Notes under the pieces: model-generated | What the model was told of the DNA's origin: nothing | Seen by the model: only the letters and a program-made list of their open reading frames with translations | The model's database searches: none | Made by a program: the position numbers and the translations under genes | Part shown: one piece after another, positions 9,432-16,438 of the stretch | Position numbering within the stretch: position 1 is the stretch's first letter | Layout: each line of letters starts with the position of its first letter | Assembly: GCF_010470675.1 (NCBI RefSeq) | Contig: NZ_VOIQ01000018.1 | Coordinates: forward strand, 1-64,000 | Source: Desulfovibrio sp. JC010 | Lineage (GTDB): Bacteria; Desulfobacterota; Desulfovibrionia; Desulfovibrionales; Desulfovibrionaceae | Direction of reading: 5' to 3' | DNA length: 64,000 nt

Positions 9432-9734
9432 TTATGGGAGTTGGTTTATCGTTTTGCAGTTGTAGCACTTGTATCCTTCTTCTTTGAAAAGATAATAACA
9501 CCCTGCAATGGCGAGAAGGATGCTAACCGTAAAATCATCAAAATCAAAAAAAGCTACAACTATTGCTAACCCCAAAGCAGCCAATAAATACATATACGCC
9601 AAAGATCTTTTTGGAGTTGCCAAATATTTATGTCCGCAGTTTGAACAAATAATTTCTTTATTTGTACGAACAGTATAAAAAAGCAAGATCGCAGTATAGC
9701 AAATAAGAGCAATTGTTATGATTGCAAATTCCAT
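9432..9734 (-). CDS. Putative immunity protein of active Rhs tip (membrane, two CxxC)
   Basis: No named family is recognised. The 100-residue product has an N-terminal membrane helix (residues 3-22), the knuckle CSNC at 30-33 (CSNCGHKY, zinc-ribbon-like), two close hydrophobic helices (about 47-63 and 68-83) and a second knuckle CYNC at 90-93. Its ATG overlaps the stop codon of rhs (TAATG), so it is translationally coupled to the toxin, the normal place for an immunity gene. The facing CxxC pairs could bind one zinc on the cytoplasmic side. A membrane-inserted antidote would fit a membrane-acting tip; this is inference. Confidence 0.65.
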   Translation of the reverse strand: MEFAIITIALICYTAILLFYTVRTNKEIICSNCGHKYLATPKRSLAYMYLLAALGLAIVVAFFDFDDFTVSILLAIAGCYYLFKEEGYKCYNCKTINQLP

Positions 9735-11707
9735 TATGTAAAATCCCTTTTGTGTGTATTGGGTTTGGCTGTTCCAAGAATTCCGAAGGCATCTTCCATT
9801 TCTTTTCTGTCTACACCAAATTTGTCAGAGAGAGCCTTAAATCCTACTTTCTTGAGTCCGCCCCATGCAGAACCATAAAAACCACCAGCTATAGCTCCTG
9901 CGAGCACACCCGGAGGGCCAAAAACACTTCCCGCGTAAGCACCTAACCCAATTGCTCCTCCAACTCCCCCGATTAACGCCCCTTCACCTAAATCCGTAAG
10001 ACCAAAGTCATCTTTATCCTTCTTACCTTTATTGGCACGAGCATCCCCACGCAACCGAGCTTCCCGAAGCTCTGAACCAGCACGAGCTATATTATCCTTC
10101 CTCGCCTTTTCATCAGCACGTTGCTTTTTAGCCACCTCTTTATAGGTTTTCTCCATCTCCCGAGCATGTTGTGCGCTAGTTTTAGCCGGATCATTTTGAG
10201 TTGTATTCGGCTTAGCTTGCCCGTTAGGATCAACAGTATTCGTCAAAGGACTGGACAAAGCATTGGCTTTTTCCATACCCGCACGCCGCTGATTATCCCT
10301 CTTCGCCGCAGCAGCAAGAGCCTTATTATCTTTTGCAAGCTGCTGAGCATCAAACTTAGCCTGCTTATCCGCTAATTCGGCAGCACTTTGCGCCACTGCC
10401 TTACCTTTTTGAGCACCGGATTGATTTAGGGCAGTTAAAGCTGTTGCGTTCCCTTGGGTGTAATTCGTATTATTGGCCGCGTTTTGGCCACCGTTTGTAA
10501 TATTTCGATTCTGCCCTTCACCGCCGAAGCCGCCGCTCCCAAAAGAAGCACTACCCCTTGCCCCTGCATGCGCTGAACCTGACACACCTAAGCCTAATGA
10601 GTCCCCTCCAAGACTTCCACCAAAGGAAGCACTACCGTGTGCTCCCGCATGTCCCGACCCCGAAACATCAAACAACCCCACCCGATCAATAAAATTAACC
10701 GGATCATCAGCACAATACCCGTATACATCCACGTCCCCGCCAGCAAGCCCCAGCGGATCGGGCTGGATGAACCTGCCGATGGTTGGGTTGTATTCGCGAT
10801 AGCCGAAATGGACCAGCCTGGTATCCTTGTCGTACAGCCCGGCAGCGAATCCAAGGGGGATTTCCATCTGCTTATTGGTATCGACAATCACATTTCCGAA
10901 CGAATCACGGATAATACGCTTTACCTCATTTCCCTCACCGTTTGCAACCATATAAATAGTCCCCACCTGATCAGCAGCAAAATAATACACGTTTTCTTTG
11001 AATCGCATGGCAATGGGATCGCCGTCTTCATCGTAAGCAAACTCCCGGCTATTGCCGAAACGGTCTACCACAGCGGACAGGGTGGTGAAATCATGCCAGT
11101 GGTATGTTTCCACTTTATGGCTGTTGATTGATTTGGAGATACGCTTGCCTTCGGAATCAATTTCGTAGCTGATACGGGTGCCGTCCGACAGCTTAACCAG
11201 CTGTAATTGCCCGGAATCATCATAGCTGTAACGGGTTGTTTCCGGTCCATGCTGCTTCAGAATCAGACGGCCCTGCCCGTCATAGGAATATTTCACATTC
11301 CCGGCCTTTTCCAGCCGCAAGCCCGGACCGTAACGAAAAGAACGTTGCGGAATCCGTGAGGTCACGCCGAAATAGCGTTCCCCGGATTTTCCGTACAAAT
11401 ACTCCTCGATCAGGTCTTCGTTGCTCCAGACCTTATGCAGCCTGCCCCCGGCGTCATATTCGTAGCGCAACCTCTGGGTAAAATTATCAAATGCCACCAG
11501 CCGCCCGGCAATGCGTCCGTTTTCATCGCGCATGGTTGCCAGCATGGAAAAAGGTTCCGATGTTCCCGGCACGATAAATGGAGTTACCCGCACCGCATCT
11601 TCGGGATTGTACTCCACATTGTCGCGCTCAAATTCATCAAACAAATCTACGCCTGTCCCGCTCTGGGGTACACGGGGATTGCCTTCCCCCTTAAAATCGT
11701 AAGACAT
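9734..11707 (-). CDS. Rhs/YD-repeat polymorphic toxin with C-terminal tip
   Basis: The protein is a short Rhs protein of 657 residues. GGAGG stands 6 bases before the ATG at 11707. About eight YD-type repeats (for example RLRYEYDAGGRL, YSYDGQGRL, RYSYDDSGQL) lead to the Rhs core at residues about 285-345 (FGYREYNPTIGRFIQPDPLGL). A twofold Gly/Ser/His repeat follows (HAGAHGSASFGG, HAGARGSASFG), then the 80-bp-repeat junction (to residue about 494), and the variable tip. The tip carries a basic helix and a Gly-rich hydrophobic segment (ALIGGVGGAIGLGAYAG and FGPPGVLAGAIAGGFYG). No signal peptide or PAAR domain is present, so delivery needs other parts outside the window. Confidence 0.88.
   Translation of the reverse strand: MSYDFKGEGNPRVPQSGTGVDLFDEFERDNVEYNPEDAVRVTPFIVPGTSEPFSMLATMRDENGRIAGRLVAFDNFTQRLRYEYDAGGRLHKVWSNEDLIEEYLYGKSGERYFGVTSRIPQRSFRYGPGLRLEKAGNVKYSYDGQGRLILKQHGPETTRYSYDDSGQLQLVKLSDGTRISYEIDSEGKRISKSINSHKVETYHWHDFTTLSAVVDRFGNSREFAYDEDGDPIAMRFKENVYYFAADQVGTIYMVANGEGNEVKRIIRDSFGNVIVDTNKQMEIPLGFAAGLYDKDTRLVHFGYREYNPTIGRFIQPDPLGLAGGDVDVYGYCADDPVNFIDRVGLFDVSGSGHAGAHGSASFGGSLGGDSLGLGVSGSAHAGARGSASFGSGGFGGEGQNRNITNGGQNAANNTNYTQGNATALTALNQSGAQKGKAVAQSAAELADKQAKFDAQQLAKDNKALAAAAKRDNQRRAGMEKANALSSPLTNTVDPNGQAKPNTTQNDPAKTSAQHAREMEKTYKEVAKKQRADEKARKDNIARAGSELREARLRGDARANKGKKDKDDFGLTDLGEGALIGGVGGAIGLGAYAGSVFGPPGVLAGAIAGGFYGSAWGGLKKVGFKALSDKFGVDRKEMEDAFGILGTAKPNTHKRDFT
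10224..10303. repeat. 80-bp direct repeat, copy within active rhs
   Basis: Identical to 9248-9327. It encodes the junction peptide ending in TNTVDPNGQ, after which the active tip begins. The exactness of the copy, against complete divergence of the flanking tips, suggests recent duplication or gene conversion. Confidence 0.9.
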
Positions 11708-14079: not shown

Positions 14080-14353
14080 TCTTTTGGTTGAATTCGGACC
14101 GCAAACAGCGAGAATAAAGGGTTTAACACCCCTGCGTGCCGGAGGTCCGATACTCCCGGTCAGACGCAGTTCTCACATTTCGTCCAAAGTACAATATGAT
14201 TATATAGAGAATTTACGTCCGCTACGCAATCAAACTATAGCGGACTTTTAAAATATTTTCAATTGTGAAAATAATTTTCGAAAACGAAAAAAGAACCCCG
14301 AAAATTCAATGAATTATTGACGGTGGGTGATTACTTATGCGATAGAAATCTTT
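14080..14353. other. Divergent intergenic region between rsfS and the paaK leader
   Basis: No gene is seen. It holds a hairpin (14217-14224 with 14238-14245) followed by TTTTA, and an AT-rich stretch from 14246. A possible sigma-70 promoter for the leader is TTGACG (14317-14322) with GATAGA (14341-14346) at an 18-base spacing. That would leave the leader peptide almost leaderless, so the true promoter may lie further upstream. Confidence 0.4.
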
Positions 14354-14413
14354 ATGCATAGCCACGACCTATTTTCCTTTTTCTTTTTTTTCTTTTTTAG
14401 GACTGAAATATAG
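14354..14413 (+). CDS. Phe-rich attenuator leader peptide
   Basis: This 19-codon frame reads MHSHDLFSFFFFFFFRTEI and stops at TAG 14411-14413. Eight of the 19 residues are Phe (TTT/TTC at 14372-14398), seven of them in a row. It is the counterpart in design of the enteric pheA and pheST leader peptides. No clear Shine-Dalgarno precedes the ATG; a GTG at 14327 is in frame and could be an alternative start. The Phe run lies between RNA segments 1 and 2 of the attenuator, where a stalled ribosome would decide the fold. Confidence 0.8.
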   Translation: MHSHDLFSFFFFFFFRTEI

Positions 14414-14488
14414 TCATCCCGTGGTTATGGGCAAACACACTGATCGAGAGTTTACCGGGCCACGGGCGAATAACCCGTGGCTTTTTTT
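14361..14488 (+). promoter_or_regulatory. Phenylalanine transcription attenuator ahead of paaK
   Basis: Four segments can pair in the classical pattern. Segment 1 is GCCACG (14361-14366) inside the leader peptide. Segment 2 is CCCGTGG (14418-14424), just after its stop codon. Segment 3 is CCACGGG (14460-14466). Segment 4 is CCCGTGG (14474-14480). Pair 3:4, extended to 8 bp (14459-14466 with 14474-14481) and followed by seven T's, is the terminator; 2:3 is a 7-bp antiterminator; 1:2 is 6 bp. A ribosome stalled on the Phe codons covers segment 1 and frees 2 to pair with 3; one at the stop codon covers 2 and lets 3:4 form. The terminator lies about 50 bases before paaK. Confidence 0.8.
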
Positions 14489-14539
14489 ATTTTGTAACTT
14501 AAACCCTGTACCGGGATCAGCCATATCAGGAGGCAAGCG

Positions 14540-15847
14540 ATGATCTTCGATGTAGACAAGGAAACAATGCCGAGGGAAGAGCTGGAAGAATTACAGCTCA
14601 GCCGCCTTAAGCAGCTTTGCGAGCGCGTTTACGCCAACGTTCCTTTTTACGCCAACAAGTTTAAGGAAATGGGCATTGAGCCCAAGGATATCAATTCCCT
14701 TTCCGATCTTACAAAACTGCCTTTCACCGAAAAGCAGGACCTGCGTAACCACTACCCCTTCGGCCTGTTTGCTGTTTCCCGTGAGAACATCGTACGTGTC
14801 CACTCTTCTTCCGGTACCACCGGCAAGGCTACCGTTGTCGGCTACACCAAGCGCGACATCAAGAACTGGGCGGACATGATGGCCCGCTCCTTCGCCATTG
14901 CCGGGGCAACCCCTGAAGACAGCATTCACAATGCTTACGGTTACGGCCTGTTCACCGGAGGCCTCGGCGCGCATTACGGTGCGGAAGCCCTCGGCGCGAC
15001 CATCATCCCGGTTTCCGGCGGCGGCACCAGACGCCAGATCATGCTGCTCAAGGATTTCGAAGCGGACGTAATCTGCTGTACCCCCTCCTATGCCCTGTTC
15101 CTGTACGAAACAGGCAAGGAAATGGGCGTTGATTTCAGCAGACTGCCCCTGCGCATCGGTATTTTCGGTGCCGAGCCGTGGACCGAATCCATGCGCCGCG
15201 AAATTGAGAATAAGCTGCACATCAAAGCCCTCGACATCTACGGCCTGTCCGAGATCATGGGCCCCGGTGTAGCCATGGAATGTGCTGAAGAGCAAAACGG
15301 CCTGCACATCATGGAAGACCATTTCCTGCCTGAGATCATCAACCCCGAAACCGGCGAACACGTTGCACCCGGCGAAACCGGCGAGCTGGTCATCACCACC
15401 CTGACCAAGGAAGGCATTCCGCTCATCCGTTACCGCACCCGCGACCTGACCCGGCTCAATTACACCTCCTGCCGCTGCGGCCGCACTTTCGCCCGCATGC
15501 ATCGCGTAATGGGACGCAGTGACGACATGCTCATCATCCGCGGCGTAAACGTCTTCCCGTCCCAGATCGAGTCCATCCTCATCGAAACCGAAGGCATCTC
15601 CCCGCACTACCAGCTGGTAGTTGAACGTGACGGCAACCTCGACATCCTGACCGTTAAAGTCGAAATTTCCGGTGCGTCCTTCTCCGATGAAATTAAAAAT
15701 TTACAGCGTCTCGAAAGAAAGATACAAAAAACTATTAAGGAATTCCTTGGCGTAACCGCACGGGTTCAGCTTGTGGAGCCCAAATCCATTGAGCGTTCCG
15801 TCGGTAAGGCCCAGAGAATAATCGACCTGCGTAATCAGGATCAGTAA
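14540..15847 (+). CDS. paaK: Phenylacetate-CoA ligase (AMP-forming)
   Basis: The enzyme activates arylacetates with ATP and CoA. GGAGG stands 7 bases before the ATG. The 435-residue product has the PaaK family's phosphate-binding loop SSSGTTGK (residues 89-96). Further motifs are YGYGLFTGG, the adenylate motif [18 protein letters not shown], and a C-terminal lid with [17 protein letters not shown]. In anaerobes such ligases often sit with indolepyruvate ferredoxin oxidoreductase; here the partner is the ACT-domain gene downstream. The phenylalanine attenuator upstream suggests expression rises when charged tRNA-Phe is short. That points to salvage of phenylacetate into Phe rather than breakdown. 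Confidence 0.9.
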
Positions 15848-15967
15848 CGGCTGTTGAAAAACGGCGATCTGCGTCGTTGCTTCAAAAAGTTCAAACCCTC
15901 ACGTACCCGGAGTACGCTTCGGTCTTGAACTTTTTTCGCGCCTAGCATCTCACCATTTTTGAACAGC
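15848..15967. repeat. Dispersed 120-bp palindromic repeat, family A copy 1
   Basis: The ends 15848-15860 and 15955-15967 are inverted repeats with one mismatch. An inner stem pairs AAAAAGTTCAA (15883-15893) with TTGAACTTTTT (15924-15934). A related copy in opposite orientation lies at 23866-23985; shared words include ATCTGC, CGTTGC, CTCACGTA and GCATCT. The inner stem followed by T's may also end paaK transcripts or act as an intercistronic structure before the ACT gene. It resembles a non-coding MITE- or REP-like family. Confidence 0.75.
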
Positions 15968-16006: not shown

Positions 16007-16438
16007 ATGAAATGTGACCAGCTATCCATATTCTTAGAGAACCGTGCCGGAAGACTCGCCGAAGTAACCCGTCTGCTCACCGAAAACAAAGTCAACATCC
16101 GCGCCCTTTCTCTGGCCGATACTTCCGATTTCGGTATCCTGAGACTCATTGTGTCCGACTTTGAAACCGCACAGAAAGTGCTCAAAGACGCAGGCTTCAC
16201 CGTGGGTAAAACCTCTGTCGTAGCAGTAGAAGTAGACGACCAGCCCGGCGGACTGCACAACCTGCTCGAAATGCTGCGCGGGTCCGGTATCAATGTGGAA
16301 TATATGTACGCCTTCGTACACCAGTCCGGTGCCAATGCCGTGATCATTTTCCGCTTCGACCGCACCGATCAGGCAATTGAACTGCTCACTGAAAAGAAAA
16401 TCAAAATGCTTCCCAGCGACGAACTTTGTAAGCTTTAA
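16007..16438 (+). CDS. Tandem ACT-domain amino-acid-binding protein
   Basis: The 143-residue product consists of two ACT domains and nothing else: residues about 3-70 ([20 protein letters not shown].., a canonical ligand-binding first strand and helix) and 72-140 ([34 protein letters not shown]). Stand-alone ACT pairs of this type sense amino acids. The gene is the usual partner of paaK in anaerobes. With a Phe attenuator controlling the pair, an aromatic amino acid is the likely ligand (inference). A terminator follows at 16551-16580. Confidence 0.88.

Follow-up and report, generated by a model that had tools for sequence, protein, structure and literature searches.

A phenylalanine-rich, probably leaderless leader before paaK in Desulfovibrio sp. 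JC010, a strongly supported candidate for transcription attenuation

The paaK leader and its surroundings

The window analysed here is a stretch of 64,000 nucleotides from Desulfovibrio sp. JC010, whose genome (G000) measures 4.39 Mb. Within it, a leader of 135 nt sits between rsfS, which lies upstream and is divergent, and a gene for a phenylacetate-CoA ligase-like protein, paaK (Table 1). Behind paaK come an ACT-domain gene and then rtcB. An earlier note on this DNA, drawn from its letters, had pointed to a reading frame upstream of paaK with eight Phe in 19 residues, and the window sequence bears this out: the ATG stands at 14354, the TAG at 14411-14413, and the peptide holds neither Tyr nor Trp. 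The four segments proposed there as alternative pairing partners (GCCACG 14361-14366, CCCGTGG 14418-14424, CCACGGG 14460-14466 and CCCGTGG 14474-14480) lie where they were placed, the stop codon does precede segment 2 by 4 bases, and the 3:4 terminator is followed by the seven T's that were announced. Segment 1 had been correctly located but drawn too short, the real segment exceeding the one claimed. The terminator ends about 50 nt before paaK.

Table 1. Features of the paaK leader region (positions in the window)
Feature	Position	Strand	Description
Leader promoter (inferred)	14317..14345	+	TTGACG 14317-14322, 17 nt spacer, CGATAG 14340-14345
Leader peptide ORF, MHSHDLFSFFFFFFFRTEI	14354..14413	+	19 codons, 8 Phe; without Shine-Dalgarno sequence, probably leaderless
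Segment 1	14357..14366	+	CATAGCCACG; partner is 14420-14429, CGTGGTTATG
Small hairpin GACTG/TAGTC around the stop codon	14400..14414	+	Between segments 1 and 2
Segment 2	14418..14429	+	14418-14424 pairs with segment 3; 14420-14429 pairs with segment 1
Segment 3	14459..14466	+	Partner of segments 2 and 4
Segment 4 and T run (intrinsic terminator)	14474..14488	+	Segment 4 14474-14481, T run 14482-14488
paaK-like phenylacetate-CoA ligase gene	14540..15847	+	435 aa; Shine-Dalgarno AGGAGG just upstream
ACT-domain pair protein gene	16007..16438	+	PF19571 (ACT_8); probably cotranscribed with paaK

This leader is no accident. A search of the window for an ORF of 10-36 codons with at least six Phe, together with a 7-bp hairpin and a T run within 110 nt, returned one locus (with two nested starts), and the same combination was absent from all 60 dinucleotide-shuffled copies of the whole window. 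Without the hairpin criterion the window holds eight Phe-rich short ORFs against a mean of 2.6 in shuffles. No Rfam family matched the leader at the gathering threshold, and the ten weak matches obtained at E up to 10 across 14250-14560 include no amino-acid leader family.

The predicted start of transcription lies at about 14352-14354. Among 43 leaders of the family (the 44 described below minus G230, whose ORF has 28 aa and three scattered Phe), the first T of TTGAC stands about 36 nt before the leader ATG, a position that forms part of the criterion by which the leaders were selected, and a -10-like box occupies -13 to -8 (A at -12 in 34 of 43, T at -8 in 30 of 43). With TTGAC at this distance, a sigma-70-like promoter would start transcription about at the ATG. 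Shine-Dalgarno-like words occur within 20 nt 5' of the ATG in 6/43 leaders versus 43/43 paaK genes, a contrast that is independent of the selection. Because the start codon follows the TTGAC box by about 36 nt and lacks a Shine-Dalgarno sequence, the leader ORF is probably leaderless.

Two further observations concern the neighbourhood. A 657-aa protein with YD-type repeats, Rhs-like by reading of its translation, is encoded at 9734-11707 on the minus strand. A large inverted repeat, whose core occurs once in the window, lies between paaK and the ACT gene (15849-15966); the paaK and ACT matches are 163 nt apart in the window versus 28-51 nt in 16 relatives, so that the repeat has the look of a mobile palindrome inserted here. 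Another palindrome, similar to the eye, stands before paaK in L081.

Conservation of the leader among relatives

All 17 genomes of the genus (g1) have a paaK orthologue, with rsfS before it and the ACT gene behind. A Phe-rich leader ORF of 16, 19 or 21 codons (4-10 Phe in 16-21 residues) lies upstream in 11 of the 17. In each of these 11 a terminator is present and the distance from the stop codon to the GTGG of segment 2 is identical; ten have no Tyr or Trp and the other, G006, has a single Trp. The Phe leader ORF was not found in the remaining six genomes (G002, G003, G004, G005, G009 and G011), which implies that attenuator control is dispensable. Inspection by eye shows the start codon and the terminator lost from G004 and G011, and a hairpin and T run kept without a conserved Phe ORF in G002, G003, G005 and G009. 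The corresponding loci (L026, L027 and L029-L032, from G004, G011, G005, G009, G003 and G002) have no leader ATG and retain promoter-like and some terminator-like sequence. Genus members lacking the leader ATG are possibly a natural decay series of an attenuator. The closest named records with a paaK of the window type are from Desulfovibrio sp. (L001, 95% identity), and L001 alone of the nine paaK loci of the first similarity search has a Phe leader; L001 and L002 were treated as the same as L022 and L027 and not recounted, and L007, L008 and L009 lie outside the 96 upstream regions considered next.

A paaK match was found in at least 212 of 288 family genomes, 17 of them those of the genus. 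The 96 upstream regions comprise all 17 of the genus and 79 chosen from at least 195 other family genomes with a match, a choice that favoured at least one per genus and also the genus g37, from which G242 and G243, with listed matches, were left out. A leader was counted when an ATG lay 35-38 nt after TTGAC and its ORF had at least three Phe. By this criterion 44 of the 96 have one (g1 11/17, g37 28/32, g36 3/3, g4 2/3), and all 44 have a terminator-like hairpin behind the ORF. Four g37 genomes (G219, G220, G222 and G248) have the ATG and fewer than three Phe, and G224, found later with a g37 model, has an ORF with two Phe in 16 residues and was not counted. Among the 41 upstream regions of other genera, none has a Phe ORF with a terminator behind it; in G154 an ORF with four Phe in 45 residues has no terminator.

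Frame and codon-position tests were confined to the four genera with leaders. Phe codons in frame total 245 versus 121 and 130 in the other frames, and the Phe count is highest in frame in 43 of the 44 leaders; among ORFs 35-38 nt after TTGAC the one with most Phe had been taken, and this choice favours Phe. Phe codons have no clear third-position excess (positions 3/1/2: 53/44/26 in g1, 47/18/40 in g37), and their non-synonymous changes outnumber the synonymous ones. The peptides themselves differ greatly among relatives, as MKNFLVFRSFFFFMCPQ, MRNFLFARFFQFTNSL and MQNTISPLCFTRLFFGFFFKRPIQPVA illustrate, so it is Phe that is conserved and not a particular peptide. Since Trp or Tyr also occurs in several leaders of other genera, for example MQQFLFARFFWFTGSL, as in G006, the specificity for Phe is not universal.

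A covariance model built from g37 recovers the window leader at E 1.6e-6; of the 11 genus leaders it finds 10 and misses G016. Searched across the class (348 genomes, including the family), it also reached three genomes of another family. Two of these have paaK leaders, G334 with MQLLNYATDKFNFPFFAFFNFNKYYMSVA and G332 with MQSRNFPFLFSFYYFFYFCVKLGSGG, each 36 nt after TTGAC and containing Tyr as well as Phe; the third match precedes an ADTH synthase-like gene. A match of this model in G229:C20 was set aside.

Alternative pairings and a model of attenuation

In the window leader, 1:2 has 10 pairs (-10.8 kcal/mol including the loop), the 2:3 core has seven (-9.8 kcal/mol including the loop) and the 3:4 hairpin reaches -15.1 kcal/mol; positions 14407-14466 folded alone give an extended 2:3 hairpin of -19.0 kcal/mol. 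The RNA of the whole leader folds into 1:2 and 3:4 together, and does so better than shuffles (z -2.84; 3 of 200 equally good). When the stretch ahead of the terminator is compared with shuffles by itself, 5 of the 11 genus leaders show no folding advantage (z 0 or above), the g4 rows having been left out of this comparison. The small hairpin around the stop codon is fully paired, in the columns used, in 9 of the 11; of the exceptions, G016 has one mismatch and G001 is able to form it one column shifted. Its innermost pair is G-U or A-U, and C-G in the shifted form of G001.

Compensatory changes bear on these pairings. In G016, segments 2, 3 and 4 have changed together, and 2:3 and 3:4 both stay paired. 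Across the genus, 2:3 (seven pairs) has 98.7% of cells paired, with 51 of 500 shuffles as good, and 1:2 has 87.3% of cells paired with no clear, significant covariation. The structure made up of 1:2, the stop-codon hairpin and 3:4 is equalled by 21 to 122 of 500 shuffles, depending on the measure: 60 for the percentage paired and 21 for the covariation score. Changes on both sides rest on single sequences here, and the covariation statistics of the genus alone are weak. In g37, the unprompted consensus fold of 27 leaders (alignment A3, with G230 left out) is 2:3, now with nine pairs and 98.3% of cells paired. Cells changed on both sides number eight for 2:3 and six for 3:4, and none of 500 shuffles came as high, a control inflated by related sequences; a +1 slide of 3:4 likewise yields six. 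Counted by pairs instead of cells, both-sided changes are unremarkable (38 of 500 shuffles for 2:3, 423 of 500 for 3:4). The check that the earlier note had set beforehand, for a Phe run and covarying stems in relatives, was therefore borne out for the Phe run, 2:3 and 3:4 but not for covariation of 1:2, and six of the 17 genus genomes lack the ORF. Its attenuation reading gains support from the leaders in relatives and from the compensation in 2:3 and 3:4.

A Phe-rich ORF, a 3:4 hairpin with its T run, a competing 2:3 and a stop codon at which a ribosome would cover segment 2 are all present, and at the level of sequence an attenuator switch is strongly supported. We hold with high confidence that the paaK leader is a ribosome-mediated transcription attenuator that would start leaderless, read charged tRNA-Phe and turn on paaK and the ACT gene at Phe shortage. 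Transcription would begin at or beside the leader ATG, so that the peptide would be translated from leaderless RNA. At Phe shortage the ribosome would stall at the start of the Phe run (codon 7 onwards) and cover segment 1, which would allow 2:3 to pair and RNA polymerase to continue into paaK and the ACT-domain gene. With ample Phe the ribosome would reach the stop codon and cover segment 2, 3:4 would form and transcription would end at about 14488. With the usual ribosome footprint, all or most of segment 1 is hidden by a stall at any of codons 7 to 10; a late stall in the Phe run would leave it unhidden, and the first Phe codons should for this reason matter most.

Folding of the free RNA is consistent with these steps. 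If the RNA is hidden to 14388, as by a ribosome at codon 7, and transcription has just passed segment 3, the long 2:3 forms with the stop-codon hairpin (-22.2 kcal/mol); if it is hidden to 14427, as by a ribosome at the stop codon, 3:4 forms. For the complete leader with codon 7 occupied, the preferred equilibrium structure is 3:4, and a half-made leader without a ribosome is predicted to take 2:3 over 1:2, so the outcome must be kinetic. A strong state of "no translation, no expression" is doubtful.

Aromatic leaders and the direction of metabolism

PaaK scores 622.2 bits against the NCBIfam equivalog TIGR02155, below its cut-off of 646.3, which leaves its substrate uncertain; the nearest solved structures are of PaaK (2y27, 2y4o, 4r1l). 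The ACT protein gives a match to 2f06 (a hypothetical protein) and a weak one to the small subunit of acetolactate synthase, and may be a Phe-sensing partner of PaaK. Elsewhere in the genome lie IorA, the alpha subunit of indolepyruvate:ferredoxin oxidoreductase (IOR; 733.7 bits, cut-off 650.9), and a beta subunit that falls below its cut-off (163.4 versus 205.8 bits). No Phe leader was found before iorA in the 157 nt upstream, and none was seen in the next intergenic region. Phenylacetate ring degradation was searched for with two markers. TIGR03200, a hydrolase of anaerobic benzoyl-CoA breakdown, has no match in any of the 17 genus genomes, a search with no positive control as none of 14 control genomes passes its cut-off either. 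PF05138 (PaaA/PaaC) also has no match in the 17, and four of the 14 control genomes pass its cut-off.

Other aromatic leaders occur in the same genome. The first leader model gave a second, weak match (E 3.8e-4) at G000:C5:122606-122756 on the minus strand (also L138, L150), where an F/W-rich leader, MNINKALFFFFNFFSFTSPVVWRCSLA, is followed by a terminator and by genes for a small membrane protein, a sodium:solute symporter (PF00474), an unassigned protein and an AMP-dependent ligase. Equivalents of this symporter leader were found in 13 of the 17 genus genomes, including G002, G003, G004 and G011, which have no paaK leader; those four were kept at similar E-values because leader and gene agree. 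That model search gave no symporter-leader match in the remaining four genus genomes. At L154, L156 and L157, matched by that model at E 0.003 or worse, no Phe leader is present, and these matches were discounted as chance. An F/Y/W leader, MQTFNTLGTGLSYFFYFFYFWCTHACGRVEVCLYEK, precedes an ADTH synthase gene, upstream of G000:C20:39827 (also L170, L214), and the genes after it look from their sequences like what is presumably an aro-phe-tyr-trp operon. The identity of the synthase was checked on its g37 homologue (TIGR01949, 398 bits). Such F/Y/W leaders stand before ADTH synthase in 16 of the 17 genus genomes, the locus being unreadable there in G008; in g37 the ADTH synthase leaders are dominated by Phe, some with Tyr.

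On a rival reading the hairpin is no more than a partial terminator, or marks the 3' end of a small RNA, with a T-rich tract ahead of it; the ORF would be untranslated and Phe would not be sensed. The scarcity of Shine-Dalgarno-like words at leader ATGs would fit such an arrangement, as would the four genus genomes that keep hairpin and T run without a conserved Phe ORF, the lack of a third-position excess in the Phe codons and the excess of Phe-rich short ORFs in the window even without hairpins. It is nevertheless very unlikely, since the frame and Phe content survive length changes and very different peptides, the leader frame is the one richest in Phe in 43 of 44 leaders, the spacing of stop codon and segment 2 is fixed in 11 of 11, and a compensated competing 2:3 would be useless to a plain terminator. 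By analogy with rnTrpL/peTrpL of Sinorhizobium meliloti, the terminated leader RNA or its peptide might act in trans, with cis control secondary. The leaderless layout resembles that of rnTrpL, whose 5' end is the trpL ATG according to the accessible part of PMC7298713, but the trpLE(G) attenuator concerns Trp and not Phe, belongs to another operon and has had its trans roles shown for S. meliloti; as the wide variation of the peptides argues against a conserved peptide function, action in trans is in our view extremely unlikely here.

A more substantial objection accepts that the attenuator works and asks what PaaK does. Phenylacetate breakdown is the best-known role of PaaK enzymes, and here too the enzyme might be catabolic or detoxifying, the Phe signal then being an indirect gauge of general starvation. 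A ferredoxin oxidoreductase that makes aryl-acetyl-CoA is known in amino acid fermentation, acting on hydroxyphenylpyruvate and less well on phenylpyruvate and indolepyruvate (PMC13285125, as far as its accessible text goes), which would suit this reading. We consider it improbable all the same: a step of Phe breakdown turned on at Phe shortage would have the wrong sign, TIGR03200 (without a positive control) and PF05138 are unmatched in all 17 genus genomes, and the window paaK leader carries Phe alone versus F/Y/W before the aromatic operon. Induction of PaaK at Phe shortage would fit Phe synthesis and not the breakdown of Phe or phenylacetate.

Control that comes on at Phe shortage implies a PaaK that serves Phe synthesis, and we judge it rather likely that it does so from phenylacetate. 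PaaK would convert phenylacetate to phenylacetyl-CoA, IOR running in reverse would carboxylate this reductively to phenylpyruvate, and transamination would yield Phe. Synthesis of Phe from phenylacetate is the archaeal IOR route. More tentatively, and a little short of an even case, one may picture a Desulfovibrio-type Phe-starvation regulon run from leaderless leaders and including arylacetate salvage: the F/W symporter would import an aromatic acid, the Phe-attenuated PaaK would have the ACT protein as its feedback subunit, IOR would carboxylate to phenylpyruvate, and the switch would be older than the split of the two families.

Among known systems, the enteric pheL leader has a Phe-rich peptide and the 1:2, 2:3 and 3:4 layout, and enteric leaders place segment 1 differently from the leader described here. 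The earlier note saw the exact geometry of the enteric pheA and trp attenuators; the general layout stands, but the exactness does not, as segment 1 wholly precedes the Phe run in the window. In the g37 leaders the predicted 1:2 uses other sequence, with segment 1 partly within the Phe codons, a layout nearer to the enteric plan. Like enteric pheA, whose attenuation is named in the accessible part of PMC1183508, paaK would be attenuated through regulatory codons and turned on at shortage; unlike it, the target is an aryl-CoA ligase and not prephenate dehydratase, the leader looks leaderless, and segment 1 lies before the Phe run in this genus. A predicted attenuator before the aro-phe-tyr-trp supraoperon of Desulfovibrio vulgaris was listed in 2005 (Table 7 of PMC1173090, from Merino's database). 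The lineage is related, the metabolic theme is the same and the ADTH synthase leaders found here are of this sort, and thus known in kind, but the operon is another one and the accessible text of PMC1173090 makes no mention of paaK and leaves the leader peptide of that attenuator unstated. The accessible part of Rodionov 2004 (PMC545781) contains none of the terms "leader peptide", "paaK" and "phenylalanine". A literature search whose coverage excluded most subscription journals found no report of a paaK leader or attenuator, and none that links phenylacetate-CoA ligase and indolepyruvate with Phe biosynthesis or reductive carboxylation. The mechanism is therefore known and the target, paaK, apparently new.

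A gene named for phenylacetate degradation thus stands behind a switch that would turn on at Phe shortage, and the sharing of this leader by many relatives suggests that PaaK helps to make Phe rather than to degrade it. The sign of control is a cheap clue to the direction of a pathway, and here it suggests that phenylacetate would be a source of Phe in anaerobes that may meet it as the waste of other microbes. In one genome three aromatic leaders form a graded series (F; F/W; F/Y/W), and the family supplies a set of probable leaderless attenuators. If the regulon reading is true, the attenuator reveals a gene of Phe biosynthesis behind a catabolic annotation.
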